From assembly GCF_001697225.1 (NCBI RefSeq), contig NZ_CP014671.1, positions 2,728,001 through 2,792,000 on the forward strand: DNA of 64,000 nucleotides. The letters run 5' to 3'. How positions within the stretch are numbered: position 1 is the first letter of the stretch; every line of letters begins with the position of its first letter. The notes below the pieces were generated by a model that saw nothing but the letters and a program-made list of their open reading frames with translations, had not been told where the DNA came from and made no database searches. Shown here in pieces: positions 6,832 through 33,523 of the stretch. The position numbers and the translations under genes were made by a program. This DNA comes from Immundisolibacter cernigliae (GTDB lineage: Bacteria > Pseudomonadota > Gammaproteobacteria > Immundisolibacterales > Immundisolibacteraceae).

Positions 6832-7513
<682 letters not shown>

Positions 7514-8411: not shown

Positions 8412-8424
8412 CCGCAGGTCGGCG

Positions 8425-8455: not shown

Positions 8456-8507
8456 TCTTGACGGCCATCAAGGGGCCGGGGCGACCAGCCTTTCTAATGA
8501 CTCCCGG

Positions 8508-8525
8508 CAACCGACCGTTCGGTTG
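8508..8525. promoter_or_regulatory. TetR-type operator palindrome upstream of Rieske oxygenase
   Basis: The 18-bp sequence CAACCGACCGTTCGGTTG is an inverted repeat with 7-bp arms (CAACCGA / TCGGTTG). Its ACCGACCG half resembles operators bound by many TetR-family repressors. It lies 47 bp before the ATG of the Rieske gene at 8573, a position suited to repression. No tetR gene is in the window, so the regulator would act in trans. Confidence 0.5.
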
Positions 8526-8572
8526 CACAAAGTTTCGGGCCGCGTGCGTGGCCCCACTCAGGAGGAGTCCGC

Positions 8573-9796
8573 ATGAACGCCCCGCAGTCGCCGGTCCGTT
8601 TTCCGTTCAGCCCGCGTCACGCCATGAAGTTCGGCACGCCGGTGCCGGACATGGGCAGCGGGCCGATCCCGGCCGAGTCGGTCACCTCGCCCGCGTATTT
8701 CGAGCGCGAGCGCGAGCAGATATTCAAGCAGGCCTGGCTGCAGGTCGGCCGGGTGGAGGAAATTCCCAATCCGGGCGACTACTTCACGCGCGAACTGCAC
8801 GTGTTCAAGAGCAACATCGTGGTGGTGCGCGGCAAGGACGGCGCGGTGCGCGCCTTTCACAACATGTGCACGCACCGCGGCATGGCGCTGGCGACCGAGT
8901 CGTGCGGCAACACGCGCGGCTTCACCTGCGAGTTCCACGGCTGGGGCTTTGGTCTGGACGGCAGCCTGCAGGCGGTGCCGGCGATCGAGTCCTTCCCCGA
9001 TTTTGACAAGTCCAAGCTCGGTCTGAAGGCGCTGGCCTGCGACACTTGGAACGGCTTCATCTTCGTGCACTGGAACCCACAGCCGGCGCAGACGCTGGCC
9101 GAGTTCATGGGGCAACTGGCCAAGGACATGGACGGTTTTCCGTTCGACAAGTGCCAGCACATTGCCCACTACACGGCGCGCGTGAAGGCCAACTGGAAGC
9201 TGTGCATCGACGCCTTCCAGGAGGCCTACCACGCCACCTACCTGCACCGGCACGCCATTCCCGGCGCCGGTGATCTTGAGCTGGCGCTGCCGACCTCGGT
9301 GCGCTTCTACGGGCCGCACCGCTCGGTGTCCTGCTGGCTCAAGACCGACATCCAGCCCACGCCGGCCGAGGCGATCGCCTACAAGCACGGCCACTTCGGC
9401 TTCGTCAAGGCGGACGAAGGGGACTCGCGCGGCCTGAACCCGTCGGGCGACGAGTCGTGGTGGTTCGACATCAACGTGTTCTTCCCGAACTTCTTCTGCG
9501 ATCTGGGCCGCGGCTGGTACTTCACCTACAACTTCTGGCCGGTGTCCGAGAACGACACCATCTGGAACATGAACATCTACCAGGTGCAGGCCGATACCGC
9601 CGGCGACCGGCTGGCGCAGGAGTTCACGCGCATCGTGCTGCGCGACACGGTGTACGAGGACATGAGCACCATGGAGTACTCGCAAAAGGCCTTCGATTCG
9701 GGCGTGATCACCGAGCAGACCATCGGCGACACCGAGATCGCCATGCGCCACCAGTACTGGGTGGCCGATGAGTGGGTCAACGGCCGCCGGCCCTGA
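8573..9796 (+). CDS. Rieske non-haem iron aromatic ring-hydroxylating oxygenase, alpha subunit
   Basis: Oxygenase that probably hydroxylates or demethylates an aromatic or alicyclic substrate with electrons from a reductase not seen nearby. The 407-residue protein has the Rieske [2Fe-2S] site CTHRG...CEFHG (C99, H101, C119, H122) and the mononuclear iron site DAFQEAYHATYLH (H220, H225, with E217/D213 nearby). AGGAGGAG precedes ATG 8573. No beta-subunit gene follows, so it may be an alpha-only (homotrimeric) oxygenase; a small unknown gene follows 30 bp later. It is distant in sequence from the three other alpha subunits in the window. The substrate cannot be deduced. Confidence 0.9.
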   Translation: MNAPQSPVRFPFSPRHAMKFGTPVPDMGSGPIPAESVTSPAYFEREREQIFKQAWLQVGRVEEIPNPGDYFTRELHVFKSNIVVVRGKDGAVRAFHNMCTHRGMALATESCGNTRGFTCEFHGWGFGLDGSLQAVPAIESFPDFDKSKLGLKALACDTWNGFIFVHWNPQPAQTLAEFMGQLAKDMDGFPFDKCQHIAHYTARVKANWKLCIDAFQEAYHATYLHRHAIPGAGDLELALPTSVRFYGPHRSVSCWLKTDIQPTPAEAIAYKHGHFGFVKADEGDSRGLNPSGDESWWFDINVFFPNFFCDLGRGWYFTYNFWPVSENDTIWNMNIYQVQADTAGDRLAQEFTRIVLRDTVYEDMSTMEYSQKAFDSGVITEQTIGDTEIAMRHQYWVADEWVNGRRP

Positions 9797-9826
9797 GCGG
9801 GCGTTCAACACCAGGAGACACATACC

Positions 9827-10174
9827 ATGAGTGCACGTCTACCCAATGCCTTCGCGGACCTCGAACCGCTGTGCGAGTACTGGCTGCACGACACCGAGGC
9901 GGCGCGCAACCGCGCCCGCATCAGTACCGACATGCCGCGCATTCGTGCCTTTTACGACGCCGTGATGCCGCGCTTCGACGCCATCATCCAGCACCTGAAC
10001 GGTTTTCCGCTGGGCGCTCTGCCGGCGGCCGAGGAAAACCTGCTGAACCTGGCGTTTTCGTTCGTGGAAGCCTCGGCGCCGGTGGAGCGTTTCAACTCGC
10101 CCATCGTCACCAAGACCTTTCCGCCCGAGCGCTTCATCATCCACGAGGATCTGGGCCGCAGCGGCGGCTGGTGA
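9827..10174 (+). CDS. small unknown protein in tandem with the Rieske oxygenase
   Basis: A 115-residue soluble protein starting at ATG 9827, preceded by CAGGAGA about 11 bp upstream. No signal peptide, cysteines or known metal motif are visible. It is predicted mostly helical in its first two thirds (DLEPLCEYWLHDTEAARNRARI, MPRIRAFYDAVMPRFDAIIQHL when read in parts) and ends in KTFPPERFIIHEDLGRSGGW. The 30-bp spacing from the oxygenase gene implies cotranscription. It could be an accessory protein for that oxygenase, but I do not recognise the family. Confidence 0.7.
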   Translation: MSARLPNAFADLEPLCEYWLHDTEAARNRARISTDMPRIRAFYDAVMPRFDAIIQHLNGFPLGALPAAEENLLNLAFSFVEASAPVERFNSPIVTKTFPPERFIIHEDLGRSGGW

Positions 10175-10179
10175 GCGTA

Positions 10180-10265
10180 TGTGGGAGCGGCGCCCCTGTG
10201 GGAGCGGCGCCCCCGCCGCGAATCTTTGAATCAGGGTTCGGCCCGAGGGCGGGCCTCCCACACAC
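10180..10265. repeat. palindromic GTGGGAG...CTCCCAC extragenic repeat, copy 1
   Basis: An intergenic element with outer arms TGTGGGAG and CTCCCACACA and GC-rich inner arms (GCGGCGCCCCCGCCGCGAAT; GGCCCGAGGGCGGGCC). Its core (10197-10265) is nearly the same as 14679-14745. The left arm is itself tandemly duplicated over 17 bp (10180-10196 and 10197-10213). It fills the gap between the convergent small unknown gene and mnmA. It resembles REP-type elements of other gammaproteobacteria and could fold into a long hairpin. Confidence 0.8.
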
Positions 10266-10305
10266 TGCAGCGATGTGCCGCAGGATGCGCCTTCCGGCCG
10301 TGTGT

Positions 10306-11457
10306 TCAGGTCAGCATTGGCTGCGGCGATGAACGGCCGATCACCGGCGCGGTGGTGTCGATCACCGCCCCGCCCAGACATTCGTTGCCCAGATAAAACA
10401 CCACCGACTGGCCGGGCGTCACCGCCCGCTGTGGGCGGGCGAAGCGCACCTCGCAACGGCCGTCGTCCAGAACCTCCACTTCGCAGGCCTCGGCCGTTTG
10501 CCGGTAGCGCGTCTTGGCGGTGCAGGAAAAGCGACTGGCCGGCGGGCTGCCGGCGATCCAGGTGGCCGCTTCGGACAGCAGGCCGTCGCTCTGCAGCAGC
10601 GGATGATCGTGTCCCTGCACGACCAGCAGCGTGTTGCGCGCCGCGTCCTTGCCGGCCACGTACCAGGGCGCATTGCCCGCGCCGTGCCCGCCGCCGATGC
10701 CAAGACCCTGCCGCTGGCCGAGCGTGTAGTGGGGCAGCCCGATGTGCCGGCCGACGATGTGGTCGTCCGGGTCCAGCATGTCGCCCGGCTCGGCCACCAG
10801 ATAGCGGCTCAGGAACTCGCGGAACGGCCGCTCGCCGATGAAGCAGATGCCGGTCGAGTCTTTCTTGCCTGCGACGGGCAGGCCGGCCTCGGCGGCCAGC
10901 GCGCGCACCTCGCGCTTGGTGAACCCGGCCAGCGGAAAGCCGGCCGGCGCCAGCTGCGCCTGCGTCAGGCTGTGCAGGAAATAGGTCTGATCCTTGTCGC
11001 GGTCGGCCGGGCACAGCAGATGTACCTGCTTTCCATCGCGGCGGAGCGCGGCGTAATGGCCGGTGGCGATGGCCTGCGCGCCCAGCGCCAGCGCATGCTG
11101 CTGGAACACGCCGAACTTGATCTGGCGGTTGCACAGGATGTCCGGATTCGGCGTGCGCCCGCGCCGGTACTCGGCCAGGAAATGCGCGAACACCTGCTCG
11201 CGGTATTCGGCAGCGAAGTTCACCACCTGCACCGGGATGTCGAGTGTGTGGCCGATGGCCTGCACGTCGGCGATGTCGGCCTCGGCCGGGCAGTCGCCGA
11301 AGCGGTCGTCGTCTTCCCAGTTCTTCATGAACAGGCCCAGCACCTCGTACCCGGCGCGCTTGAGCAGCAGCGCCGTGACGGCCGAATCCACGCCTCCGGA
11401 CAGACCGACCACCACCCGCGCCGGTGGTGGCAGCGGCAGGCCGAAGGGGGCGTCCAT
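10306..11457 (-). CDS. mnmA: tRNA-specific 2-thiouridylase MnmA
   Basis: Thiolates U34 of tRNA-Lys, -Glu and -Gln wobble positions, using sulfur relayed through the Tus proteins or IscS. The 383-residue protein has the PP-loop GLSGGVDSA, KNWEDDD, the catalytic cysteines in PNPDILCNRQIKFG (C109) and STGICFIGER (C205), ATGHYA, DKDQTYFLH and the C-terminal barrel (PHYTLGQRQGLGIGG). ATG at 11457-11455 is chosen because it overlaps the nudJ stop and is followed directly by the PP-loop domain. The nudJ-mnmA order matches E. coli. Confidence 0.96.
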   Translation of the reverse strand: MDAPFGLPLPPPARVVVGLSGGVDSAVTALLLKRAGYEVLGLFMKNWEDDDRFGDCPAEADIADVQAIGHTLDIPVQVVNFAAEYREQVFAHFLAEYRRGRTPNPDILCNRQIKFGVFQQHALALGAQAIATGHYAALRRDGKQVHLLCPADRDKDQTYFLHSLTQAQLAPAGFPLAGFTKREVRALAAEAGLPVAGKKDSTGICFIGERPFREFLSRYLVAEPGDMLDPDDHIVGRHIGLPHYTLGQRQGLGIGGGHGAGNAPWYVAGKDAARNTLLVVQGHDHPLLQSDGLLSEAATWIAGSPPASRFSCTAKTRYRQTAEACEVEVLDDGRCEVRFARPQRAVTPGQSVVFYLGNECLGGAVIDTTAPVIGRSSPQPMLT

Positions 11458-19825: not shown

Positions 19826-20791
19826 TCAGCGGCGCCGCAAGTAGAGCACGCCGAACAGTTCGCCGGTATCGGCCCAGGTCTGCCGCGGCTCAAAACCGGC
19901 CTGCGTGGCCAGGTGCCGGAACTCGTCGGGTCGGTACTTGTACGAATTCTCGGTGTGGATGGATTCGCCGGCAGTGAACTCGAACGCCTGACCGGCCAGC
20001 CGCACGGTTTGCGCACGCAGGCTGTCCAGGTGCATTTCGATGCGTCCGGCAGCGGCGTTGTAGAAGGCGCGGTGGGCGAAGGCACTCAGATCGAAGTTGG
20101 TTCCCAGTTCCCGGTTGCAGCGGGCCAGCAGGTTCAGGTTGAAGGCGGCGGTGACGCCGGCGCTGTCGTTATAGGCGGCGTTCAGGATGGCCGGGTCTTT
20201 CTTCAGGTCCACGCCGATCAGCAGACCATCACCGGCGGTGAGCTGGTGTGCAACGTTTTTGAGGAATCGCAGCGCCTCCAGCGGCGCGAAGTTGCCGATG
20301 CTGGAGCCGGGGAAGAACGCCAGCCGGCGCTGCCCGCCGCGCGCCACCCGCGGCAGCGTGAACGGCCGCGTGTAGTCGGCGCACACCGCCATCAGGTGCA
20401 GCGCCGGATAGTCCTGCGCCAACGTGTGGCAGGCGCCCAGCATGTGCTGGCGCGAGATGTCGATCGGCATGTACACGTCCGGCGCCAGGGCATCGAGCAG
20501 CAAGCGCGTCTTCATGCTGCTGCCGCTGCCGTATTCCACCAGCACACCGCCGCGACCGGCGAGGTCGGCGATCTGGGGCGCCGCTTCGGTGAGGATGTCG
20601 ATCTCGGTGCGCGTCGGGTAGTACTCCGGCAGTTCGCAGATCCGGTCGAACAGGGCGGAGCCGACCGCGTCGTAAAAGAACTTGCACGGCAGGCTCTTGT
20701 GCGGCTTGGTCAGGCCTTCCAGCACGGCGGTGCGAAAGTCCTCCTGTTCCGGGGCGAGATCGTGCAGGCGCAGTTTGGCGAGTGTGTTCAT
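19826..20791 (-). CDS. egtD: L-histidine N-alpha-methyltransferase EgtD
   Basis: Trimethylates histidine to hercynine with SAM, the first step of ergothioneine synthesis. The 321-residue protein has the EgtD N-terminus (FRTAVLEGLTKPHKSLPCKFFYDAVGSALFDRICELPEYYPTR in parts), the SAM loop EYGSGSSMKTRLLLDAL, PIDIS, FFPGSSIGNF, LIGVDLKKD, YNDSAGVTAAFNLNLL and the C-terminal IHTENSYKY. Its ATG overlaps the repaired egtB stop (ATGA), so egtB and egtD form a coupled operon. egtA, egtC and egtE are not in the window. Confidence 0.96.
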   Translation of the reverse strand: MNTLAKLRLHDLAPEQEDFRTAVLEGLTKPHKSLPCKFFYDAVGSALFDRICELPEYYPTRTEIDILTEAAPQIADLAGRGGVLVEYGSGSSMKTRLLLDALAPDVYMPIDISRQHMLGACHTLAQDYPALHLMAVCADYTRPFTLPRVARGGQRRLAFFPGSSIGNFAPLEALRFLKNVAHQLTAGDGLLIGVDLKKDPAILNAAYNDSAGVTAAFNLNLLARCNRELGTNFDLSAFAHRAFYNAAAGRIEMHLDSLRAQTVRLAGQAFEFTAGESIHTENSYKYRPDEFRHLATQAGFEPRQTWADTGELFGVLYLRRR

Positions 20792-22082
20792 GGGTCATCT
20801 GCCAGGCGCAGGCCGGCGCAGGCCCAGCGCGCGTCAGGGGGAAGAAATTGCGGTAGGTGGCGCGCAGGTGATCGGCCGGTGTCAGGCAGCAACCGCCGCG
20901 CAGCACCATCTGGCCGGACATGAACTTGCCGTTGTACTCGCCGACCGCGCCCTCGGCCGGCCGGTAGCGCGGGTACGGCAGGTAGGCGCTGGCGGTCCAC
21001 TCCCAGACGTCGCCGAACATCTGCTTGAAGCCGGCGCGGGCCCCGGCCGGCTGGGCTTCGAGCCGGTCCTGGTCCAGAAAATTGCCGCCGGCCGGGGCGG
21101 CGATCGTTCGGGCGGCCGCCTCCCATTCGAACTCAGTCGGCAGGCGCCGGCCGGCGAAGCGGGCATAGGCGTCGGCTTCGTAAAAGCTCAGGTGACTGAC
21201 CGGCGTGGCCGGATCGAGGGCACGCATGCCGCCGAGTGTGAACACCTGCCAGCCGTCTTCGCACTTTTCCCAGTACAGCGGGGCCGTCCAGCCGCGCGCC
21301 TGCACCGCAGCCCAGCCGTCCGACAGCCACAGTTCGGGCGTTTGATAACCGCCCGCGGTGATGAAGTCCAGGTATTCGCCACAGGTGACCAGGCGATCGG
21401 CCAGCCGATACGGGGGCAGGAAAACGCGGTGGCGCGGTGTTTCGTTGTCGAAGGCAAACCCCGGTCCATCGTGTCCGATCTGCACCATGCCGCCGTCGCA
21501 TGACAGGAAGTTGACTGCGGCCGTGGTGTCCGCAGCGGTCTGCGGCAGATCCTCGCGATAGGCCGGCCGCAGCGGATTGGCGTGGAAGTTGTGCTTCACG
21601 TCCATCAGCAGCAGTTCCTGGTGTTGCTGCTCGTGGTTGAGGCCCAGTTCCAGCAGCGGCGCCAGGCGCGCCCAGCCCGCTGGGTCCAGCGTGTCCAGCA
21701 GGGCTGTCAGGTGCCGATCCACATGCGCCCGGTAGGCGAGCACTTCGTCGGTGGTGGGCCGGGCCAGCAGGCCGCGCCGCGCGCGCGCGTGAAATGGCCC
21801 GACCTGGTTGTAGTAGGAATTGAACAGATAGCCATAGCGGGGATGAAACGGGCGATAAGCCGGCAGGTTTGGCGCCAGGAGGAAGGTCTCGAAAAACCAG
21901 CTCGTATGCGCTAGGTGCCATTTGGGCGGGCTCACGTCCGGCATGGACTGGATCACCATGTCCTCGACGGTGAGCGGTGCGCACAGGGACTGCGTCAACC
22001 GGCGCACGGCCAGCAGACGATCGACCAGTTCGGCGGGTGCCGGGTGTGATGCAAAGGCGCTGGCGTGGGCGATGCTCGCCAT
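20788..22082 (-). CDS. egtB: ergothioneine biosynthesis sulfoxide synthase EgtB, frameshifted near its 3' end
   Basis: Non-haem iron enzyme that forms the C-S bond between hercynine and a thiol donor. It has an N-terminal DinB-like domain with the iron ligands WHLAHTSWFFE and LNHEQQHQELLLMD (HX3HXE), and a C-terminal FGE-sulfatase domain (GYQTPELW, RLPTEFEWEAAA, MFGDVWEWTASAY, VLRGGCCLTPADHLRATYRNFFP). After NFFP the frame departs from the family. One more C in the five-C run (plus-strand G 20837-20841) restores NFFPPDARWACAGLRLADDP and a TGA at 20790-20788 that overlaps egtD. Repaired length is 431 residues. It starts at ATG 22082. Confidence 0.92.
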
Positions 22083-22119
22083 GCGTGATTTCCCCTCGTG
22101 CAGCCGTTCATACTGGCCG

Positions 22120-22148
22120 TTGGTGGCACTTGGCGTTGGTGCTAGTAT
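22120..22148 (+). promoter_or_regulatory. sigma-70-like promoter for the dioxygenase operon
   Basis: TTGGTG (22120-22125) and TAGTAT (22143-22148) are separated by exactly 17 bp, on the plus strand, in the 275-bp divergent gap between egtB and the first Rieske alpha gene. The leader to the ATG at 22358 would be about 200 nt. No operator palindrome was recognised in the leader. Confidence 0.45.
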
Positions 22149-22357
22149 CCGGAAACCCGCTGACAGCGCAAATGCGCCGCGGCCGCGATGACATCCGGTG
22201 GCGCCGGATGGGGCCAGTGGCGGTTAAACTTGCGCGTGTTGAGCCCCGGCACGGATGCCGGCGCAGCGCCGTCGATGTTCCTCATTAAAACGGGTGGTCA
22301 GCGACGAGCACACTGGCGTCGCCGCACCGACAGCATTCAAAGCAGGGGATTGAGACG

Positions 22358-23713
22358 ATGAAGCCGAACGAGTTGACTGCGCCCGACATTGACCGGTTGG
22401 TCGTTGACCTGGCCGATCAGGGCGAATTTCATGTCCACCGCGACGTGTTCCGCGATCCGGCGGTGTTCGAGCTGGAGATGAAATACATCTTCGAGCGCAA
22501 CTGGGTGTTCGTGGGTCTGGACAGCCAGGCCCCGAACCCGAACGACTACTTCACCACCTGGGTCGGCCGCCAGCCGATCATCGTGGCGCGCGACAAGCAC
22601 GGCAAACTGGGCGCCTTCATCAACTCGTGCGCCCACAAGGGCGCACGCATTGCCCATCACCGTGACGGCAACGCCAAGCAGTGGGTGTGCTCGTACCACG
22701 GCTGGGCCTACGACACGGCCGGCGCGTGCATCTACATCAAGGACCAGGACGCCGGCTGCTACGCCGAGCCGTTCAACAAACTGGACCACGGCCTCAAGAA
22801 AGTGAAGTTCGGCCAGTACCGGGGCTTCCTGTTCGCCAGCCTGTCGGACGATGTGCCACCGCTCGATGAGCATCTGGGTGGGGCCAAAGAGCTTCTGGAC
22901 CTGGTCTGGGACCAGGGGCCGGACGGCATCGAGGCCATCCCCGGCGTGTCCAGCTACACCTACAACGCCAACTGGAAGATGCAGGTCGAGAACTGCATCG
23001 ATGCCTATCACCTGACCTCCTGCCACCCGAGCTTCATGAATATCGTCAGCCGCCGCAAGGCCGGCGAGAGCGACAACAAGCAGGTCAAGTCGATCGACTT
23101 CAACCTCATGTCGCAGGTCAAGGGCGGCGGCTACACCTTCCCGCGCGGTCACGCGGTAGGCTTTTTCGACAATCCGGTGCCTCAGGAACGCGGCCTGTAC
23201 CAGCATCACGATGAGCTGGTGGCCCGTGTCGGTGAGCAGAAGGCGCGCTGGATGTACGCCGGGCGCAACCTGACCATCTACCCCAACGTGCAATTCGCCG
23301 AGAACGCCTCGCTGCAGATGCGCGTCATCCGGCCGCTGTCGGTGGACAAGACCGAGATGACCATCTACTGCCTGGGCGCCAAGGGCGAGAGCGATGCCGC
23401 GCGCGAGATCCGCGTGCGCCAGTACGAGGACTTCTTCAACACCTCGGGCATGGCGACGCCGGACGATACGATTGCCTACGAGGACTGCCAGGTTGGTTTC
23501 AAGGCTAGCGTGCTGACCCAGATGCAGGGTTACGGGCGCGGCATGACCAACGTGGTGGCAGGTGCGGACGAGCGGGCGACGGAGGTCGGTTTCACGCCCG
23601 CCACCAGCTCGACCGGCCCCTTCGCCATGCAGGACGAGACCGTCATGTTCGGCGGCTACCGTGCCTGGAAGAAATTCATCAAGGACGGGCTGGCGGCCGA
23701 CGGCGTGGCCTGA
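22358..23713 (+). CDS. Rieske ring-hydroxylating dioxygenase alpha subunit, tandem paralogue 1
   Basis: Catalytic large subunit of a multicomponent aromatic ring dioxygenase. The 451-residue protein has the Rieske centre SCAHKGARIAHH...CSYHGW (C91, H93, C111, H114) and the mononuclear iron facial triad ENCIDAYHLTSCH (H218, H223; D215 bridges the two centres in this family). It is followed 44 bp later by a second alpha gene of exactly the same length. The first ~230 residues of the two are nearly identical, while residues ~240-300 and the last ~70 differ. They share the beta subunit gene at 25150. No ferredoxin or reductase gene is adjacent. Confidence 0.92.
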   Translation: MKPNELTAPDIDRLVVDLADQGEFHVHRDVFRDPAVFELEMKYIFERNWVFVGLDSQAPNPNDYFTTWVGRQPIIVARDKHGKLGAFINSCAHKGARIAHHRDGNAKQWVCSYHGWAYDTAGACIYIKDQDAGCYAEPFNKLDHGLKKVKFGQYRGFLFASLSDDVPPLDEHLGGAKELLDLVWDQGPDGIEAIPGVSSYTYNANWKMQVENCIDAYHLTSCHPSFMNIVSRRKAGESDNKQVKSIDFNLMSQVKGGGYTFPRGHAVGFFDNPVPQERGLYQHHDELVARVGEQKARWMYAGRNLTIYPNVQFAENASLQMRVIRPLSVDKTEMTIYCLGAKGESDAAREIRVRQYEDFFNTSGMATPDDTIAYEDCQVGFKASVLTQMQGYGRGMTNVVAGADERATEVGFTPATSSTGPFAMQDETVMFGGYRAWKKFIKDGLAADGVA

Positions 23714-23757
23714 TCCATCCGCCAGCCGAAACGACATCTGACCGGAGCCAGACACTC

Positions 23758-25113
23758 ATGAAGGCAAACGAACTCAAATTCAGCGACATCGACCGCCTGA
23801 TCGTCGACAACGTCGATCAACACGAATTCTGGGTCCATCGCGACCTGTACCGCGACCCGGCGGTGTTCGAGCTGGAGATGAAATACATCTTCGAGCGCAA
23901 CTGGGTGTTCGTGGGTCTGGAAAGCCAGGCGCCGAACCCGAACGACTACTTCACCACCTGGGTCGGCCGCCAGCCGATCATCGTGGCGCGCGACAAGCAC
24001 GGCAAACTGGGCGCCTTCATCAACTCGTGCGCCCACAAGGGCGCACGCATTGCCCATCACCGTGACGGCAACGCCAAGCAGTGGGTGTGTTCCTACCACG
24101 GCTGGGCCTACGACACGGCCGGCGCCTGCATCTACATCAAGGACCAGGACGCCGGCTGCTACGCCGAGCCGTTCAACAAGCTCGATCACGGTCTCAAGAA
24201 GGTCAAGTTCGACGCTTATCGGGGCTTTCTGTTCGCCAGCCTGTCGGACGACGTACCGAGCCTGGACGAGCACCTGGGCGATGCCAAGAAGATGCTGGAC
24301 CTGGTCTGGGACCAGGGTCCGGATGGCATCGAGGCCATCCCCGGCGTGTCCAGCTACACCTACAACGCCAACTGGAAGATGCAGGTCGAGAACTGCATCG
24401 ATGCCTATCACCTGACCTCCTGCCATCCGAGCTTCATGAACATCGTCAGCCGCCGAAAGGCTGGCGAAAGTCGCAACACGCAGGTCAAGTCGATCGACTT
24501 CAACGTCATGGACGTAGTCAAGGGCGGCACGGCCTGTTTCCCCCGCGGCCATGCCGTCATCTACGCCACCAATCCCCTCGAGAACGAGCGCGGCATGTTC
24601 GTGCACAGGGACGAGGCGGTCGCTCGCTGCGGCGAGACCAAGACCAAGTGGATGCTGGCCACGCGCAACCTGACCATCTACCCCAACGTGCAGTTTGCCG
24701 AGAACGCCTCGCTGCAGATGCGCGTCATCCGGCCGCTGTCGGTGGACAAGACCGAGATGACCATCTACTGCATTGGCGCCAAGGGCGAGAGCGACGCCGC
24801 GCGCGAGATCCGCATCCGCCAGTACGAGGACTTCTTCAACACCTCGGGCCTGGCGACGCCGGACGACACCATTGCCTACGAGGATTGTCAGTTCGGCTTC
24901 CAGGCCAGGAATCTGGAATGGCTGCAGGGCACCGCGCGCGGCATCACCGGCTACCACACCGGCCCCGACGAACTGTCGCAGGAAATCGGCATACGGCCGG
25001 ACAGCGGCTTCATGGGTGCCATGGGCGCGTGGGACGAGACCGTCTATTACGGCGGCTACCGGGCCTGGAAGCAGTTCATCAAGGACGGGCTGGAAGCCGA
25101 CGGCCTGCTGTGA
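23758..25113 (+). CDS. Rieske ring-hydroxylating dioxygenase alpha subunit, tandem paralogue 2
   Basis: Second alpha subunit, also 451 residues, offset 1400 bp from paralogue 1. It has the same Rieske (SCAHKG...CSYHGW) and mononuclear iron (DAYHLTSCH) motifs. Nucleotides 23932-24089 match 22532-22689 without a mismatch, so duplication or gene conversion is recent. The variable block (VVKGGTACFPRGHAVIYATN ... KWMLATR) replaces paralogue 1's QVKGGGYTFPRGHAVGFFDN ... RWMYAGR, and the C-terminal region also differs. These segments line the substrate pocket in structurally known relatives, so the pair may have split substrate ranges. Confidence 0.92.
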   Translation: MKANELKFSDIDRLIVDNVDQHEFWVHRDLYRDPAVFELEMKYIFERNWVFVGLESQAPNPNDYFTTWVGRQPIIVARDKHGKLGAFINSCAHKGARIAHHRDGNAKQWVCSYHGWAYDTAGACIYIKDQDAGCYAEPFNKLDHGLKKVKFDAYRGFLFASLSDDVPSLDEHLGDAKKMLDLVWDQGPDGIEAIPGVSSYTYNANWKMQVENCIDAYHLTSCHPSFMNIVSRRKAGESRNTQVKSIDFNVMDVVKGGTACFPRGHAVIYATNPLENERGMFVHRDEAVARCGETKTKWMLATRNLTIYPNVQFAENASLQMRVIRPLSVDKTEMTIYCIGAKGESDAAREIRIRQYEDFFNTSGLATPDDTIAYEDCQFGFQARNLEWLQGTARGITGYHTGPDELSQEIGIRPDSGFMGAMGAWDETVYYGGYRAWKQFIKDGLEADGLL

Positions 25114-25149
25114 CGCCGCGGCGCCATCAACAATTTCATTTGCAAGGGG

Positions 25150-25659
25150 ATGACCGTGACCGATTTAGTCAGGGCACTGGCCGAAGCCAGTCAGGTGCTG
25201 TATCGAGAAGCCATGTATGTCGACGCCCAGCGCTGGGACGAGTGGCTGGGCCTGTTCACCGATGACTGCGAGTACTGGCTGCCGGCCTGGAAGGGTGAGC
25301 ACGCGCTGACCGCCAACCCGAAGCGCGAGATCTCGCTGATCTACTACGGCACCCGGGCTGGCCTGGAGGACCGCGTCTGGCGCATCCGCTCCGGCCAGTC
25401 CATCGCCAGCACGCCGCTGCCGCGCACCACCCACGCCGTGCACAACATCCTGGTCGAGGACGTGACCGCCGACAGCATGACCGTGCTGTCCACCTGGACC
25501 GCGCACTGCTTTTTCCACAAGCTGAACGCCAGCGAAGTGTTTTTCGGCGATTACCGGCACAGCCTGCGCATGAGCGCCGATGGCTGGAAGATCGCCCGCA
25601 AGTACATCGTGCTCAAGAACGATTACGTGCCGACCATGCTCGACATCTACAACATCTGA
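25150..25659 (+). CDS. ring-hydroxylating dioxygenase beta subunit
   Basis: Small structural subunit of the alpha3beta3 oxygenase (NTF2-like / scytalone dehydratase fold). The 169-residue protein has the family pattern YREAMYVDAQRWDEWLGLFTDDCEYWLPAW in parts, EISLIYYGTRAGLEDRVWRI, a TPLPRTTHAVHNI stretch and the C-terminal KIARKYIVLKNDY. It starts at ATG 25150 with AGGGG just upstream, 36 bp after the second alpha gene, and probably serves both alpha subunits. The ThDP enzyme gene follows after 31 bp. Confidence 0.93.
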   Translation: MTVTDLVRALAEASQVLYREAMYVDAQRWDEWLGLFTDDCEYWLPAWKGEHALTANPKREISLIYYGTRAGLEDRVWRIRSGQSIASTPLPRTTHAVHNILVEDVTADSMTVLSTWTAHCFFHKLNASEVFFGDYRHSLRMSADGWKIARKYIVLKNDYVPTMLDIYNI

Positions 25660-25690
25660 CCGCCGACTCGATTCATCAGGAGCCATTGCA

Positions 25691-27454
25691 ATGTCCGTGA
25701 CCGCCAAATCCATCGCCCCGCAGCGCGACCAGTCGCCGCTGAACATGACCGCCTCCTACTGGCTGGAGGCCATGAACGAGATCGGCGTCGACTACCTGTT
25801 CTGCAACATGGGTACCGACCACGCGCCGATCATTGAAGCCATGGCGCAGTGGCGCCAGGCAGGCCGCAAATACCCGAAGGTGATCCTGTGCCCACACGAG
25901 AACACCGCGGTGCACATGGCGATCGGCTATTACCGCGTCACCGGCCGGGCGCAGGCCGTGCTGGTGCATGTGGACGCCGGTACCGCCAATTCCGCCATGG
26001 GCCTGCACAACGCGTTCCGTTCCCGCGTGCCGCTGGTGCTGATGGCCGGCACCGCGCCGGTCACCATCCGCGGCGAGCTGCTGGGCACCCGCGACACCTA
26101 CGTGCACTTCATCCAGGATCCCTACGACATGAAGGGGATCGTGCGCAATTACGTGAAGTGGGAGTACCAGCTGCCGACCGGCATCATCGTCAAGGAAGCC
26201 ATGCGCCGCGCCTTCAGCATGGCCGAGAGCGACCCGCCGGGGCCGGTCTACATGACCCTGCCGCGCGAAATCCTGGCCCAGACCTGGGAGCCGGAGCAGG
26301 TTGCCTCGTTCCCGGTCGATGCCTACGGCCCGCTGCGCTTCACCGGCGTCGACGACGCCCCGCTGACGCAGATCGCCGAACGCCTGCTGGCGGCCGACTA
26401 CCCGCTGCTGATCACCAGCTTTGCCGGGCGCAACATCAAGACCCCCGCGCTGCTGGACGAACTGGGTCAACTGGTCGGCATGGGCGTGATCGAGTCCTAC
26501 CCGCAGGTGCTGAACATCTCCAAGGCCTCGCCGGTGTTCCTGGGCAACCTGTCCGAGCCGCACCTGCCGAAGGTCGATTTCGGTCTGATGGTCGACACCG
26601 ACCTGCCGTGGATGCCCAAGGAGGCCAGCCCGAACCCGAACACCTTCTGGGCGCACATCGACATCGACCCGATCAAGAACGACATCCCGATGTGGGGCTT
26701 CCCTGGCCATCTGAAGGTGCAGGCGGACAGCTACCTGGCCCTGACGCGCCTGATCGAGATCGTCAAGGGCAAGCTCACCGATGCCCACCGCGCCCGCGCC
26801 AAGACGCGCCTGGAAGGTTTTGCCAAGCAGCGCCAGGAAGCGGTGGTCTACATCCAGAACCTGGCCAAGGACAAGGGCACGCCGGGCCTGATCAACCCCG
26901 CCTACCTGTGTGCGGAGCTGAACAAGGTGCTGCGCGAGGACGACATCCTGGTCTCCGAGGCGGTGATGAACGAGCCCTCAGTCGGCATGCAGGTGCTGCG
27001 CACCAAGCCCGGCACCGTACTGGGCCTGGGCGGCGGCGGCCTGGGCTACAGCCCCGGCGCGGCGCTGGGCGTCAAGCTGGCCAAGCCGGATGCGATGGTG
27101 CTGCACCTGTCCGGTGACGGCAGCTTCTACTTCGGCAACCCCAGTTCCACCTACGAGGTGGCGCGCGAGCACAATCTTCCGATCTTCACCGTGGTGTTCG
27201 AGAACGGCGGCTGGTCGGCGGTCAAGGAGTGCACCATCAAGGTCCACCCGGACGGCGTGTCGCGCGACACGGACGAGTTCCAGGCGCGCCTGAACCCGGC
27301 CTACCAGTTCCAGAAGGTCTGCGAAGCGGCCGGCGGCCACGGCGAGGACGTGATCAATCCGGAAGACCTGCCGGCAGCCATTGCCCGCTGCGTCAAGGCA
27401 GTGCGCGAAGAAGGCCGCTCGGCGCTGCTGGTGGCGCACGTCAAGCGCCTGTAG
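25691..27454 (+). CDS. thiamine diphosphate-dependent enzyme, acetolactate synthase-like
   Basis: A 587-residue ThDP enzyme of the acetolactate synthase/benzoylformate decarboxylase superfamily. The N-terminal PYR domain has the cofactor-activating Glu70 in CPHENTAVHMAIGYYR. A central domain follows, then a C-terminal PP domain with GLGGGGLGYSPGAALG and the Mg-ThDP motif starting GDGSFYFGNPSSTYEVAREH and ending VVFENGGW. It starts at ATG 25691, 31 bp after the beta subunit gene, and ends the operon. ilvB-type context (ilvN, ilvC) is absent, so it is probably not for branched-chain amino acids. Decarboxylation or carboligation of a 2-oxo acid from ring cleavage is a reasonable inference. Confidence 0.85.
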   Translation: MSVTAKSIAPQRDQSPLNMTASYWLEAMNEIGVDYLFCNMGTDHAPIIEAMAQWRQAGRKYPKVILCPHENTAVHMAIGYYRVTGRAQAVLVHVDAGTANSAMGLHNAFRSRVPLVLMAGTAPVTIRGELLGTRDTYVHFIQDPYDMKGIVRNYVKWEYQLPTGIIVKEAMRRAFSMAESDPPGPVYMTLPREILAQTWEPEQVASFPVDAYGPLRFTGVDDAPLTQIAERLLAADYPLLITSFAGRNIKTPALLDELGQLVGMGVIESYPQVLNISKASPVFLGNLSEPHLPKVDFGLMVDTDLPWMPKEASPNPNTFWAHIDIDPIKNDIPMWGFPGHLKVQADSYLALTRLIEIVKGKLTDAHRARAKTRLEGFAKQRQEAVVYIQNLAKDKGTPGLINPAYLCAELNKVLREDDILVSEAVMNEPSVGMQVLRTKPGTVLGLGGGGLGYSPGAALGVKLAKPDAMVLHLSGDGSFYFGNPSSTYEVAREHNLPIFTVVFENGGWSAVKECTIKVHPDGVSRDTDEFQARLNPAYQFQKVCEAAGGHGEDVINPEDLPAAIARCVKAVREEGRSALLVAHVKRL

Positions 27455-27475
27455 GCGGTCGCGGTTTGAAACAGG

Positions 27476-27509
27476 GCGCCGTCATTCGCGAGGATGGCGG
27501 CGCTTTTTT
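27476..27509 (+). terminator. Rho-independent terminator ending the dioxygenase operon
   Basis: A GC-rich stem (GCGCCGTCAT, 27476-27485, with ATGGCGGCGC, 27494-27503, one mismatch) is followed by six T. It lies 22 bp after the ThDP enzyme stop and before the convergent metB-like gene. Confidence 0.85.
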
Positions 27510-27547
27510 GTGGGTGCGTTTGCCTCATGCAGCGCCCGCGGTCCGCT

Positions 27548-28714
27548 TCAGTCCGGCAGCGCCTGCGCCATGTCGGCCACCAGATCCCGGCTGTCCTCGA
27601 TGCCGACCGACACGCGCACCAGGCCGGGGCCGATACCGGCGGCCGCCTGTGCCTCGGGGCTCATGGCCGCATGGCTCATGCTGGCCGGGTGTTCGATGAG
27701 GCTCTCGACGCCGCCCAGGGATTCGGCGAAGGCGTACAGCTTCAGGCGCTCGACCAGGCGGAACACGGCCTCCTCGCCGCCCTTGAGGTCGAAGCTGAGC
27801 ATGGCGCCGAAGCCGCGCTGCTGGCTTCTGGCCAGGGCGTGCTGCGGATGCGTGGGCAGGCCCGGGTAATAGACGTGTTCGACGCGCGGGTGCGCATCCA
27901 GGAACTGCGCCAACGCGGTGGCGTTCTTCTCGTGCGCCTGCATGCGCAGCGGCAGGGTCTTGACGCCGCGCAGCACCAGCCAGGCGTCGAACGGCGAGCA
28001 GGTGGTGCCAAGGGCATTGGCGGTGGCGGCGACTTTGGCAGCCATCTCCGGCGTGGCGGACACGATGGCGCCACCGACCACGTCGCTGTGGCCGTTCAGG
28101 TACTTGGTGGTCGAATGCACCACCAGATCGGCGCCCAGTTCCAGCGGTCGCTGCAGGTAAGGGCTCAGGAAGGTGTTGTCGGAGCAGCTGAGGATGCCGC
28201 GCTCGCGGGCCAGGGCACACACGGCGGCGATGTCGGTCAGGCGCAGCAGCGGGTTGCTGGGGGTCTCGATCCAGATCATGGCCGTGTCCGGCTCGATGGC
28301 AGCCGTGACGGCCTCCGGATCACCCATGTCGACCAGCGTGAAGCGCAGGCCGCGCGCCGGCAGCACGTTGGCGAACAGGCGGTAGGTGCCGCCGTAGATG
28401 TCGTTGCCGGCGATCACGTGCGCGCCGGCCGGCAACAGGTGCAGGGTGGTCGTGATGGCCGCCATGCCGGTGGCCACGGCGGTGGCACCGGCGCCGCCTT
28501 CCAGGCTCGCCAGGTTTTCTTCCAGCGCGTCGCGGGTGGGGTTTTTGGTGCGCGTGTAGTCGTAGCCGGAGGTCTGCCGCGGTCCCTCGAAATAGAACGT
28601 GGACGACGGGTAGATGGGCGTCACCACCGAGTTGTACAGCGGGTCCTTGTAGACGCCGCCGTGTACGCAGCGGGTGGCGAACTGGAGGGTTTCGAGCGGA
28701 ATGTGGCGCTTCAT
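27548..28714 (-). CDS. metB: PLP-dependent Cys/Met metabolism transsulfuration enzyme (cystathionine gamma-synthase-like)
   Basis: Joins O-acylhomoserine with cysteine to cystathionine, or acts as a related gamma-lyase. The 388-residue protein has SSTFYFEGPRQ, DYTRTKNPTRDALEENLASLEGG in parts, SDNTFLSPYLQRPL, the PLP lysine K204 in VVHSTTKYLNGHSD, and GVESLIEHPASMSH near the C-terminus. The LNGHSDVVGG and AESLGGVESLI blocks match the MetB/CGL group; gamma-synthase is preferred over gamma-lyase on overall resemblance to E. coli MetB. It is a single gene, convergent with the dioxygenase operon and divergent from the glucan operon. Confidence 0.85.
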   Translation of the reverse strand: MKRHIPLETLQFATRCVHGGVYKDPLYNSVVTPIYPSSTFYFEGPRQTSGYDYTRTKNPTRDALEENLASLEGGAGATAVATGMAAITTTLHLLPAGAHVIAGNDIYGGTYRLFANVLPARGLRFTLVDMGDPEAVTAAIEPDTAMIWIETPSNPLLRLTDIAAVCALARERGILSCSDNTFLSPYLQRPLELGADLVVHSTTKYLNGHSDVVGGAIVSATPEMAAKVAATANALGTTCSPFDAWLVLRGVKTLPLRMQAHEKNATALAQFLDAHPRVEHVYYPGLPTHPQHALARSQQRGFGAMLSFDLKGGEEAVFRLVERLKLYAFAESLGGVESLIEHPASMSHAAMSPEAQAAAGIGPGLVRVSVGIEDSRDLVADMAQALPD

Positions 28715-28957
28715 GACGGTCGGGCAGGCGTTTGAGGGCGCGACAGTCTAGCAAGCCCGCGCCCCGGCATCGGCCTCCGCCGACATGCAGCTGTGGAAAG
28801 GCGCTTGGCACAGCCATTTTTTTACTGCCGCCATGTGGCCGCGCCGTCTCCAAAGTAGAATTCCGCCCGCCTTGACGGCATCCCTCCCGCGCCGGTCGGT
28901 CCGTAAGTATCCGCACCGCGGTCAGTACCAGCCCGCCACCCTTTGGAGTAGCAACCG

Positions 28958-30535
28958 ATGCCGCTGCGCAGCACGCGTCGCGACTTGTTGAAATTCATGA
29001 GTGCCGGCGGCCTGCTGGCGCTGGCCGGTCTGTACCCGGCCCATGCGCTGGCCCGCGCAAGCCTGGGGCCAAAGCGCAAGTTCAGTATGGACACACTGCG
29101 CGAACAGGCCCGCCAACTGGCCGCCCGGCCGTATGTCGCGCCGACGATTCCGGATGCGCAGCTGCTGTACACGATCGACTTCGACGCCATCCAGAAAATT
29201 CGTTTCAAGCCCGAACAGGCCCTGTGGAACGAGCCGCCGTCAGCCTTCGGCGTGCAGCTGTTCCACCCGCACCGCTTCGCCCAGAAGCCGGTGCGCATCC
29301 ACCTGGTGGAGGGTGACGAGGCGCGCGAGGTGCCGTTCTCGACCGACCTGTTCGACTACGGCACGTCGGGACTGGCGAAAAAAATGGCCGGTCACGGCGG
29401 CTTTGCCGGTTTTCGGGTGATGGACCCGGCGCCGGCCAAGACCGACTGGCTGGCGTTCCAGGGCGCGTCCTATTTCCGCACCGGCGGCGTGCAGGGCCAG
29501 TACGGCCTGTCGGCGCGCGGCATCGCCATTGACACCGCCATGCCACAGCCGGAGGAGTTTCCGGACTTCACCGCGTTTTATCTGGAACGCCCGGTCGGGG
29601 ACCGCATCACGCTGTACGCCCTGCTCGACGGGCCCAGCCTGACCGGCGTGTATCGCTTCGTGTGCACGCGCGCCAAGCCGGTGTTGACCGAGGTCCACGC
29701 CGAGCTGTTTGCGCGCCAGGACATCGGCCGCCTGGGCGTGGCGCCGCTGACCAGCATGTTCTGGTACGGCGAGAACAACCGCCGGCGCAGCGCCGATTGG
29801 CGGCCGGAAATCCACGACTCCGACGGCCTGGCGCTGTGGACCGGGGCCGGCGAGCGGCTGTGGCGGGTGATCGAGAACCCGCCACTGGTGATGACCTCGT
29901 CGTTCGTGGATTTCAACCCGCGCGGTTTCGGCCTGTCGCAGCGGGACCGCAATTTCGAGAACTACCAGGACGATGGCGCCTTCTACGACCGCCGTCCCTC
30001 GGTGTGGGTGCAGCCGCTGGGCGACTGGGGCGAGGGCGCGGTGCAGCTGGTCGAAATCCCGACCGACGACGAGATCCACGACAACCTGGTCGCCTACTGG
30101 ACGCCCAAGGAGCCGGTGCGCGGTGGCAGCGCCTGGACCTTCGACTACCGCCTGTACTGGGGTGATGACGAGCCATTCATCCCCGAGGTCGGGCGCGTGC
30201 GCCACACCTGGCGCGGGCGCCACGGCATTCCCGGTATCGCCGCCCAGCAGGCGGCGCAGCAGGCCTCGGGGATGAAGTTCGTCATCGATTTCTCCGGCGG
30301 GCCGCTGGCGGCGCTCGAGCAGCGCTTCGACCTGACGCCCATGGTGACCGCCTCGCGCGGACGGGTGGACAACGCGCATGTGCTCAAGGTGGTCGGCACC
30401 GATCGCTGGCGGGCCTCGTTCGACCTGTACGTGGACGGCGCCGAACCGGTTGAACTGCGCTGCTACGTGCGCCTCGGTGACAAAACCCTGACCGAAACCT
30501 GGCTGTACCAATACATTGCGGCAACCTCATGCTGA
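28958..30535 (+). CDS. opgD: glucan biosynthesis protein OpgD (MdoD), Tat-exported
   Basis: Periplasmic protein that shapes osmoregulated periplasmic beta-1,2-glucans; E. coli OpgD is reported to be a GH186 beta-1,2-glucanase. The 525-residue protein has a Tat signal (STRRDLLKFMSAGGLLALAG) ending around ALARA. Family motifs follow: IRFKPEQALW, GGFAGFRV, ASYFRTGG, SMFWYGEN, PEIHDSDGL, GFGLSQRDRNFENYQD and GDWGEGAVQLVEIPT. The next gene starts 7 bp before its stop. It is the first of five tightly packed genes (opgD, opgG-like, opgG, unknown, opgH). Confidence 0.92.
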   Translation: MPLRSTRRDLLKFMSAGGLLALAGLYPAHALARASLGPKRKFSMDTLREQARQLAARPYVAPTIPDAQLLYTIDFDAIQKIRFKPEQALWNEPPSAFGVQLFHPHRFAQKPVRIHLVEGDEAREVPFSTDLFDYGTSGLAKKMAGHGGFAGFRVMDPAPAKTDWLAFQGASYFRTGGVQGQYGLSARGIAIDTAMPQPEEFPDFTAFYLERPVGDRITLYALLDGPSLTGVYRFVCTRAKPVLTEVHAELFARQDIGRLGVAPLTSMFWYGENNRRRSADWRPEIHDSDGLALWTGAGERLWRVIENPPLVMTSSFVDFNPRGFGLSQRDRNFENYQDDGAFYDRRPSVWVQPLGDWGEGAVQLVEIPTDDEIHDNLVAYWTPKEPVRGGSAWTFDYRLYWGDDEPFIPEVGRVRHTWRGRHGIPGIAAQQAAQQASGMKFVIDFSGGPLAALEQRFDLTPMVTASRGRVDNAHVLKVVGTDRWRASFDLYVDGAEPVELRCYVRLGDKTLTETWLYQYIAATSC

Positions 30536-32013
30536 ACTGGCGCAGCCTGGGTTTGCTGCTGGCCGCGTGGGCCGGCGCTGCCAGCGCAACCGGCAAGGAC
30601 TTTGATTTCGACGCCCTGAAAGCGCGCGCCCGGCAGCAGGCGGCGGCTGCGTACAGCCCTCCGCCGGAGGCCGACGGTGCCCTGGCGCAGATCGATCCCG
30701 CGCGCCGGGATGCGGCGCCGCTCAAGGCCCGCTACGCGCCGTGGTCGATGGCCTCGCGCTTCGTGCCGCTGCCGCTGGCGCCGCGCGCCGGCTGCGCGCT
30801 GACACTGTTCAATTCCATTCAGGCCAGCGGCATCGAGCGCTTCGACTACCGGCCGGAACTGTTCGACTGGCCGGCGGCCGGCCTGCCGGCGCCGGGGCCT
30901 GCCGCGACGGGTTTTTGCGGCTTTCGCCTGCTGTATCCGTCGGCTGGGGACGGCAAACGTGAGGACCTGGCGCGCTTCGAGGGCGATGCCTGGCAGCTGG
31001 TCGGCACCGGCGCGCTGTTCGGTGCGGCCGCACTCGCGGTCGGGGTGATCGACAACGACGGTCGGGCGCAGCCGGTGCCGTTTCGCGAGTTCTGGCTGGT
31101 GCGCCCGGCGGCCGGCGCCCGTCAGCTGCGGCTGTATGCGCTGGCCGATTCGCCGGCGTTGGCGGCTGCGTTCCAGATCGACCTGGTGCCGGGCGTTGCC
31201 AGTCGCGCCGACGTGCAAGTGGCGCTGTATCCGCGGGAAGGCGCCGGCAAACTGCTGCTGGCGCCGCTGGCCGGCAGTTTCGTGCAGGGGAAGCATCGAC
31301 CGGCGCGCGTGTTGCCGCTGCAGGCCGAGGTGCACAGCGTGGATGGACTGGCCATCCACACCGCCGCTGGCGGCTGGTTGTGGCGGCCGCTCGACAATCC
31401 ACCCGAGCGCAGCGCCTACAGCTTTCTGGTCAACACGCCGCGCGGGTTCGGCCTGTTGCAGCGTGATCGCGACGCCAGCCACTACGAGCCGGACGCGCCG
31501 CAGCCCCGCCAGCCGGATGTGTGGCTGGTGCCGGGCGGCGACTGGGGGGCCGGCCAGCTGCTCCTGCTCGAAGCGCCAGCCGGCAGCGCCGCTGTGCGCA
31601 ACGTGCAGGTCGGATTCGTGCCCGACCAGCAGCCGGCACCCGGCGCGGGGATGGAGCTCGGCTACGCCGTCCACTGGTCGACCGACGCGTCGCTGCCGCG
31701 TGCCGGCGGCTGGGTGATCGCCACCCGCAGCGGTGCCGGAGGGAACGATGGCAGCCGCCGCTATGCGGTGGATTTCGTCGGCCCGGCCCTGCAGGGGCTG
31801 CCGTCCGGCGCGGCGCCAGTGGCGGTCATCGACATCGGCCGCGGCGGCAGCCTGCAGCGCCAGCAAGTGGTGGCCAATCCGCATACGGGTGGCTGGCGTC
31901 TGCTGTTCGAGTTCAACCGTGAAACCGACGCCCCGCTGCAACTGCGCGCCTATTTGCAGCACGCCGACCAGCCTCTGACCGAAACCTGGGACTATGTCGA
32001 TCCGCCTCGCTGA
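30529..32013 (+). CDS. divergent OpgG/OpgD paralogue lacking several conserved motifs
   Basis: A 494-residue exported protein (Sec signal LGLLLAAWAGAASA) of the OpgG fold, recognisable by GFCGFRLLYP, FREFWLVRPAAGARQLRLYAL, PRGFGLLQRDRD and GDWGAGQLLLLEAP. It lacks the SMFWYGEN block found in its neighbours. The HDSDGL/HSSDGL motif is HSVDGL and the YQD motif is YEP. It overlaps opgD by 7 bp and opgG by 20 bp, so it is cotranscribed. It is probably not an active hydrolase of the GH186 type; a structural or partner role is inferred. Confidence 0.82.
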   Translation: MLNWRSLGLLLAAWAGAASATGKDFDFDALKARARQQAAAAYSPPPEADGALAQIDPARRDAAPLKARYAPWSMASRFVPLPLAPRAGCALTLFNSIQASGIERFDYRPELFDWPAAGLPAPGPAATGFCGFRLLYPSAGDGKREDLARFEGDAWQLVGTGALFGAAALAVGVIDNDGRAQPVPFREFWLVRPAAGARQLRLYALADSPALAAAFQIDLVPGVASRADVQVALYPREGAGKLLLAPLAGSFVQGKHRPARVLPLQAEVHSVDGLAIHTAAGGWLWRPLDNPPERSAYSFLVNTPRGFGLLQRDRDASHYEPDAPQPRQPDVWLVPGGDWGAGQLLLLEAPAGSAAVRNVQVGFVPDQQPAPGAGMELGYAVHWSTDASLPRAGGWVIATRSGAGGNDGSRRYAVDFVGPALQGLPSGAAPVAVIDIGRGGSLQRQQVVANPHTGGWRLLFEFNRETDAPLQLRAYLQHADQPLTETWDYVDPPR

Positions 32014-33523
32014 TTACCTGCGGCCATCGCGACGGCCCCGGCCGCCTGGGGCTTCTGCTGTGCCGGGGGCCGGTCGGCGCTGGCTGGTGGGCCTGGGCTG
32101 CTGGCTGCTGCTGGCGGCGGCGCAGGGCGCCGAGTTCGACTGGTCGCAGGTGGTGCAGAAAGCACGTGAGCGCGCCGCGGCGCCCTACCAGCCCATGCCG
32201 GCGCGCCTGCCCGACTGGCTGCTGCAGCTCGATTACCGCGCCTGGCAGGACATTCGCTTCGACCCGAACGCGGCCCTGTGGGCGGGTGAGGACCTGCCGT
32301 TCTCGGTCCGCTTCCATCATCCGGGCAGCATCTATCGCCAGCCGGTCGCGATCAGCCAGATCGAATCCGGGCAGGCCAAGCCGCTGGCTTTTGCGCCGGG
32401 GCAGTTCTTCTACGGGCCGGGGGTGGATCGCCAGCGGGTGCCGGGCGATCTGGGTTACGCCGGTTTCACCGTCTACGCGCGCAACAAGGACAGCTGGCAG
32501 CCGGTGCTGGAATTCCTGGGCGGCAGCTTCATGCGCGGCGGGGCGCCGCTGCTGCCCGGCGGCGTGCGGTCGCGGGCGCTGGCCATCGACACCGGCCTGC
32601 CCAGTGGCGAGGAGTTCCCGGTCTTTACCGATTTCTGGCTGGTGCGGCCCGCGGCGGGCGCCAAACGGTTGACCGTCTACGCCCTGCTCGACTCGCCGCG
32701 TGTCAGCGGTGCCTATCGGATCGAGCTGACGGCTGGCGCGCAGCTTGTCACGCAGATGGACAGCGAACTGTTTTTCCGCGATGCGGTCGGCCGGCTGGGC
32801 CTGGGCCCGCTGTCGAGCATGTTCTGGTATGGCGAAAACGGCCCGCTGGTGGACGACTACCGGCCGGAGGTGCACAGCTCCGACGGGCTGCTGGTACATG
32901 CCGGCAAGGAGCGTCTGTGGCGTCCGCTGGCCAATCCGCAGCGCCTGGGACAGCAGTCGCTGCCGGTGCCGCCGGCTGCGGTCTACGGCCTGCTGCAACG
33001 GGACCGGGATTTCGAGCATTACCAGGATCTGGACGCGGCCTTCGAAGCGCAGCCGGGCGTGGTGCTGGAACCCCAGAAGGGTTTCGGCGCCGGCCGGCTG
33101 GAGCTGCTGGAACTGCCGGTGCGCGACGGCTTGAACCAGAACGTGCTGGCCTATTTCGTGCCGCAGGCCAAGGTGCGGGCCGGCGATCACCTGTCGCTGC
33201 GCTACCGCCTGCGATGGGGTGATCGGGAGCCGGGTGAAGAAGCCGGCCGGGTGCTCGCCACGCGCATCGCCCGCCAGGACGGCGTCAGCACCCACCAGAT
33301 CGATTTTGCATCGCTTGGCGCCGGCAGCGTGCCGCCGAAGCCGCAAATCAGCGTTCAAGGCGGCAAGGGTGGCGAGCCCGTCGTGCAGGCGCTGGGCGAC
33401 GGCTGGCGGTTGACGCTGCCGGTAGAACACGACGACGGCGCGCCGCTGACGATCCGTGCCGGCCTGCTCTCGGACACCGGCAGGCGCAGCGAAACCTGGC
33501 TGCATCACTTCGGTGAGGATTGA
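31994..33523 (+). CDS. opgG: glucan biosynthesis protein OpgG (MdoG)
   Basis: Periplasmic protein needed for beta-1,2-glucan backbone formation or release. The 509-residue protein has a hydrophobic signal (WLVGLGCWLLLAAAQG) after a basic N-terminal extension. It then shows YRAWQDIRFDPNAALW, GYAGFTVY, GGSFMRGGA (in place of ASYFRTGG), EEFPVFTDFWLVRP, SMFWYGENGPL, EVHSSDGL, GLLQRDRDFEHYQD and LELLELPV. Its ATG lies 20 bp inside the previous gene. A shorter start would place the signal nearer the N-terminus. It ends 4 bp before the small unknown gene. Confidence 0.92.
   Translation: MSIRLADYLRPSRRPRPPGASAVPGAGRRWLVGLGCWLLLAAAQGAEFDWSQVVQKARERAAAPYQPMPARLPDWLLQLDYRAWQDIRFDPNAALWAGEDLPFSVRFHHPGSIYRQPVAISQIESGQAKPLAFAPGQFFYGPGVDRQRVPGDLGYAGFTVYARNKDSWQPVLEFLGGSFMRGGAPLLPGGVRSRALAIDTGLPSGEEFPVFTDFWLVRPAAGAKRLTVYALLDSPRVSGAYRIELTAGAQLVTQMDSELFFRDAVGRLGLGPLSSMFWYGENGPLVDDYRPEVHSSDGLLVHAGKERLWRPLANPQRLGQQSLPVPPAAVYGLLQRDRDFEHYQDLDAAFEAQPGVVLEPQKGFGAGRLELLELPVRDGLNQNVLAYFVPQAKVRAGDHLSLRYRLRWGDREPGEEAGRVLATRIARQDGVSTHQIDFASLGAGSVPPKPQISVQGGKGGEPVVQALGDGWRLTLPVEHDDGAPLTIRAGLLSDTGRRSETWLHHFGED

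Follow-up and report, generated by a model that had tools for sequence, protein, structure and literature searches.

A conserved unit in Immundisolibacteraceae joins two benzoate-type dioxygenase alpha subunits and one beta subunit to a probable 2-oxo acid decarboxylase

In the hydrocarbon-degrading soil bacterium Immundisolibacter cernigliae, four genes at 22358–27454 of the window (the whole 64,000-nucleotide stretch of DNA that we analyzed) place two Rieske dioxygenase alpha subunits and one beta subunit directly ahead of a ThDP-dependent enzyme of the PRK08327 family, an arrangement that is kept in other Immundisolibacteraceae. We propose, with confidence and doubt about equally matched, that this unit is a catabolic operon in which a benzoate-type oxygenase, assembled from either alpha1 or alpha2 with the one beta subunit, is paired with a 2-oxo acid decarboxylase, such that an arylglyoxylate-type acid would be converted to an aldehyde, then to an aromatic carboxylate, and finally dihydroxylated.

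All four reading frames are open and lie on the forward strand. They encode alpha1 (22358–23713; 451 amino acids, benzoate/toluate type, Pfam PF00355 and PF00848), its tandem paralogue alpha2 (23758–25113; also 451 amino acids, Pfam Rieske and Ring_hydroxyl_A), the beta subunit (25150–25659, starting at either ATG 25150 or GTG 25156; Pfam PF00866, Ring_hydroxyl_B, 143.5 bits) and the ThDP-dependent enzyme (25691–27454; 587 amino acids, NF006203, Pfam TPP_enzyme_N and TPP_enzyme_C), in agreement with a preliminary description of this DNA. For the ThDP gene, ATG 25691 is the most likely start, to judge from the CAGGAG just 5′ of it, rather than the mechanically called 25580. Successive genes are separated by 44, 36 and 31 nucleotides, and the ThDP gene is followed directly, as the preliminary description had stated, by an intrinsic terminator (27474–27509, forward strand) with a 14-bp stem, a 4-nucleotide loop and a T6 tract (–25 kcal/mol, z –4.55, with 0 shuffles as stable). 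These short gaps and the strong terminator fit a single transcription unit. The single promoter-like site that had been placed upstream was not recovered, as a sigma-70 consensus scan of 20000–30000 returned 0 sites. The flanking genes have no evident role in the unit: those upstream are divergent and of the egtB/egtD (ergothioneine) type, and the one downstream is convergent and of the metB/metC type. Beyond the latter lie three consecutive opgG/mdoG-like paralogues (28958–33523, forward strand; named by eye), whose order is kept in Immundisolibacter STE_186.

The ThDP enzyme belongs to the PRK08327 family and is probably a 2-oxo acid decarboxylase. It scored 630 bits against the NF006203/PRK08327 model (cut-off 456), 132 bits against that of acetohydroxyacid synthase (AHAS; far below the cut-off of 538) and 128 bits against that of benzoylformate decarboxylase (BFD; PRK07092, below the cut-off of 493). 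In a HMMER alignment, its Glu72, His95 and Thr44 (residues counted from 25685) fall at the positions of the BFD catalytic residues Glu47, His70 and Ser26, respectively, and a fourth, His281, could not be aligned by sequence. Glu72 and His95 are invariant across the aligned PRK08327-type proteins, and AHAS has a Thr where His95 stands. Because the BFD active-site His replaces the AHAS Thr, the label 'acetolactate-synthase-like' used in the preliminary description is misleading. Together with the low AHAS score and the presence of the genome's own ilvB, ilvN and ilvC, this His rules out an AHAS identity; the three ilv genes sit together near 3.23 Mb, separate from the ThDP gene, which disposes of the alternative of an AHAS with an ilvN partner. 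The genome's other two ThDP-like genes are ilvB and one at 1.25 Mb whose homology is distant. Among proteins of solved structure, cyclohexane-1,2-dione hydrolase and BFD matched the enzyme at nearly equal E-values. AlphaFold2, given four sequences, yielded a model too poor for a fold search (pLDDT 48.5). To our knowledge no PRK08327 member has a measured activity, and the family carries no named function. A quick tree placed the enzyme in a 26-row clade (SH-aLRT 100) made up of Immundisolibacteraceae, the order of genome G191 (hereafter the G191 order) and G339; a dioxygenase gene lies nearby in 20 of the 26, and some of the remaining rows are cut by contig ends.

Both alpha subunits carry the CxH-x17-CxxH and DxxHxxxxH motifs within Rieske and catalytic domains, and with the beta subunit they qualify as a Rieske ring-hydroxylating dioxygenase of the alpha/beta kind. 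For alpha1 the best NCBIfam model was BenA (TIGR03229; 451 bits, below the cut-off of 781), and the beta subunit scored 159 bits against BenB (TIGR03232; below the cut-off of 226). The window's subunits are nearest to those of the benzoate/toluate 1,2-dioxygenases of benABCD and xylXYZL, with 42–43% identity to annotated BenA, but the alphas cluster, in an alpha tree, with those of Novosphingobium humi, PP1Y and EMRT-2 outside the BenA clade. The unit differs further from these operons in its two alphas, its ThDP gene and its lack of benC and benD, which sets it apart from a benzoate 1,2-dioxygenase operon. Likewise, no gene for an aldehyde dehydrogenase, a 2-hydroxy acid dehydrogenase, a reductase or a diol dehydrogenase was found within the unit. 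Elsewhere in the genome there are three BenC-like reductase matches (best 32% identity). The single 3,243,537-base contig of this genome holds about 70 Rieske alpha-type matches versus 14 ferredoxin-domain and 3 BenC-like matches, an extreme ratio of oxygenases to reductases that makes a shared reductase likely.

The two alphas are 82% identical (BLAST), and this identity is unevenly distributed. In both species that we examined, alpha1 and alpha2 are near-identical within either genome over much of the Rieske half; over codons 76–100 they are 100% identical within each genome but 88% identical between the species. Because identity in the Rieske half is higher within a genome than between species, the pattern indicates that gene conversion has homogenized this half in each genome, while two segments of the catalytic domain have stayed distinct. 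The first of these (alpha1 codons 251–300, 23108–23257, forward strand) is 56–59% identical in nucleotides to alpha2 and 89–96% to the orthologue, and the second (codons 376–425, 23483–23632, forward strand) is 55–60% identical to alpha2 and 87–88% to the orthologue. Taking both species together, these segments show 55–63% nucleotide identity between alpha1 and alpha2 versus 83–99% between orthologues, and over codons 231–300 dN is 0.000–0.006 between orthologues versus 0.34 between the paralogues. By analogy with naphthalene dioxygenase, the first distinct segment should overlap the substrate pocket. The mosaic amounts to a natural experiment, flagging stretches that might govern which substrates benzoate-type dioxygenases accept. 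A previous study counted 21 xylX copies in I. cernigliae, with pairwise identities of up to 81% (PMC9535955), and alpha1 and alpha2 are probably that closest pair; the sections of that paper that we drew on do not discuss the ThDP gene, the gene order or gene conversion.

Relatives that we found by protein matching belong to Immundisolibacter and other Immundisolibacteraceae, and the gene order sought in other genomes is found there. It is identical in the nearest species (G001), whose ThDP enzyme is 98% identical, and alpha-alpha-beta-ThDP is also kept in family member L037, in which a contig end cuts the ThDP gene; a third locus (L036) shows alpha-beta-ThDP, with the alpha gene cut by the contig start. 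The gene egtB still lies upstream of the unit in L037 and in STE_186 (L034). A lone chimeric alpha gene in STE_186 that looked like a single-copy version was rejected owing to a run of N inside the gene. Between I. cernigliae and the nearest species, dN/dS is 0.083 for alpha1, 0.089 for alpha2, 0.046 for beta and 0.085 for the ThDP gene, and all four genes are therefore under purifying selection. The order kept in other Immundisolibacteraceae and the low dN/dS take the arrangement beyond chance and, with the short gaps, uphold the earlier treatment of the genes as one unit. The unit does vary in size and is not always limited to four genes: in the sister genus (G003, G004 and G006) a PanE/ApbA-family gene lies directly 3′ of the ThDP gene. 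Immundisolibacter itself has only distant homologues of this gene (best 28%), located away from the unit.

A ThDP gene behind Rieske genes had been called unusual, but the pairing extends beyond this genome and recurs in several lineages. The closest ThDP relatives outside the family (50–53% identity) belong to the unrelated, alphaproteobacterial-type G191 order, in which they sit beside alpha and beta genes (for example L100, L154 and L156). Among 76 genomes of this order, 42 have a ThDP match and 45 an AndAc-like alpha, with both present in 37 and neither in 26 (Fisher p 1.6e-8, ignoring kinship), and an alpha gene lies 0.9–6.7 kb from 29 of the 43 ThDP genes. These loci usually have a beta gene and often genes for a PdxA-type protein and a TctC receptor; a small glyoxalase-superfamily gene occurs in eight of them. 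They differ from the window's unit in the AndAc-like alpha, the PdxA-type and TctC genes and, in most loci, the opposite strand. This combination of AndAc-like alpha/beta, PdxA-type, PRK08327 ThDP and TctC genes (for example L154, L156 and L165) is widely kept, and we found no description of it.

Clusters in Novosphingobium humi and PP1Y join a PRK08327 enzyme, more distant than those above, to a benzoate-type alpha/beta pair, and also contain genes for a PanE-type protein, an aldehyde dehydrogenase, a nitrilase-superfamily protein and an MFS transporter. Novosphingobium EMRT-2 has a comparable cluster (mdlC-alpha-beta, L074), in which a ThDP decarboxylase gene directly adjoins a related alpha/beta pair and a PanE-type gene lies in the vicinity. 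Here, however, the enzyme is a true BFD (768 bits, cut-off 493), it lies 5′ of a single alpha, and the cluster has its own regulator and transporters. The host genome also has a second ThDP gene near 2.30 Mb, oriented divergently to an adjoining further alpha/beta pair with about 90 nucleotides between the starts (together 7508–11144 of locus L075); its product is 30% identical to the window's enzyme and, at 391 bits, stays under the PRK08327 cut-off of 456. PRK08327 enzymes of other clades are mostly without a dioxygenase nearby. We found no described operon combining a dioxygenase with a PRK08327 enzyme or BFD in the open-access literature.

Dioxygenases of the same type are accompanied by two distinct ThDP lineages, a named BFD among them. 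This is our main reason for proposing 2-oxo acid decarboxylation, and the inclusion of D-mandelate dehydrogenases in the PanE family (PMC12350541) fits this proposal. The reading also draws on the conserved order, the purifying selection and the invariant BFD-like Glu and His, a combination absent from AHAS, as well as on the ThDP–alpha linkage in the G191 order and Novosphingobium and the PanE-type gene of the sister genus. Decarboxylation is thus the better supported half of the preliminary suggestion of decarboxylation or carboligation. From the gene content, gene order, catalytic residues and ThDP–Rieske linkage that we observed, we infer every chemical step of the following route. A PanE-type dehydrogenase, encoded outside the window's unit, could optionally convert a D-2-hydroxy acid to an arylglyoxylate-type 2-oxo acid, which the ThDP enzyme would decarboxylate to an aldehyde. 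Oxidation of this product to the aromatic carboxylate would fall to an aldehyde dehydrogenase acting in trans, and the alpha/beta oxygenase would dihydroxylate this acid next to the carboxyl group to give a cis-diol, with a reductase, likewise encoded outside the unit, supplying the electrons. Alpha1 and alpha2 would offer one electron-transfer scaffold with two different catalytic-domain segments and so a wider substrate range. The mandelate pathway (mandelate dehydrogenase, BFD and benzaldehyde dehydrogenase) feeding benzoate dioxygenase is a known parallel: in the window, too, a benzoate-type oxygenase is joined to a ThDP enzyme that has the Glu and His of BFD, and the Novosphingobium relatives add a PanE-type dehydrogenase and an aldehyde dehydrogenase, but the window's enzyme is PRK08327 rather than BFD, and its unit lacks the 2-hydroxy acid and aldehyde dehydrogenases. 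Several observations count against this reading: the BFD score of 128 against a cut-off of 493, the Thr at the BFD Ser26 position, the pathway partners missing from the unit, the mostly dioxygenase-free surroundings of other PRK08327 clades, and the PdxA-type and AndAc-like partners in the G191 order, which belong to different families from the window's.

The ThDP enzyme might instead act after the oxygenase, cleaving or rearranging an alpha-diketone, an alpha-hydroxyketone or a ring-fission 2-oxo acid, much as cyclohexane-1,2-dione hydrolase acts on its diketone. PAH degradation yields diketones and 2-oxo acids, the ThDP gene is placed 3′ of the oxygenase genes, and the near tie between this hydrolase and BFD points the same way; yet a true BFD occupies the equivalent place in EMRT-2, PanE-type genes accompany the ThDP gene, and the unit has no ring-fission gene, so that we regard such a role as unlikely, if still worth weighing. 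Quite improbable is an incidental adjacency, with the ThDP enzyme serving a separate pathway in a dioxygenase-rich genome: with about 70 alpha-type matches spread over 3.24 Mb, chance adjacency is non-negligible in this genome alone, but order and synteny are kept across the family, and there is independent linkage in another order and in Novosphingobium. More improbable still is a carboligase forming acyloin or acetolactate from an aldehyde and a 2-oxo acid, since, although carboligation is a common side activity of ThDP decarboxylases and the enzyme has distant AHAS similarity (132 bits), it falls far under the AHAS cut-off, has the BFD His in place of the AHAS Thr in a genome with its own ilvB-ilvN-ilvC, and would not be needed in a catabolic setting.

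Returning to the decarboxylase reading, we suggest tentatively, and with more doubt than conviction, that a dioxygenase-dedicated ThDP decarboxylase clade, combined with one beta and two alternative alphas that share a gene-converted electron-transfer half and differ in their catalytic segments, could funnel aromatic 2-oxo acids into degradation by an undescribed route, both in PAH degraders and in soil bacteria. The decarboxylase reading itself offers part of a ThDP family that is common but unnamed a function open to testing, and it predicts that side-chain shortening is coupled with ring dihydroxylation in a PAH degrader with dozens of mostly unassigned dioxygenases. Elsewhere in the window, another benzoate-type alpha gene (43474–44980, reverse strand) is broken by an in-frame insertion of about 60 nucleotides that is flanked by 28-nucleotide direct repeats and introduces a TAG stop, and the beta gene after it is intact.
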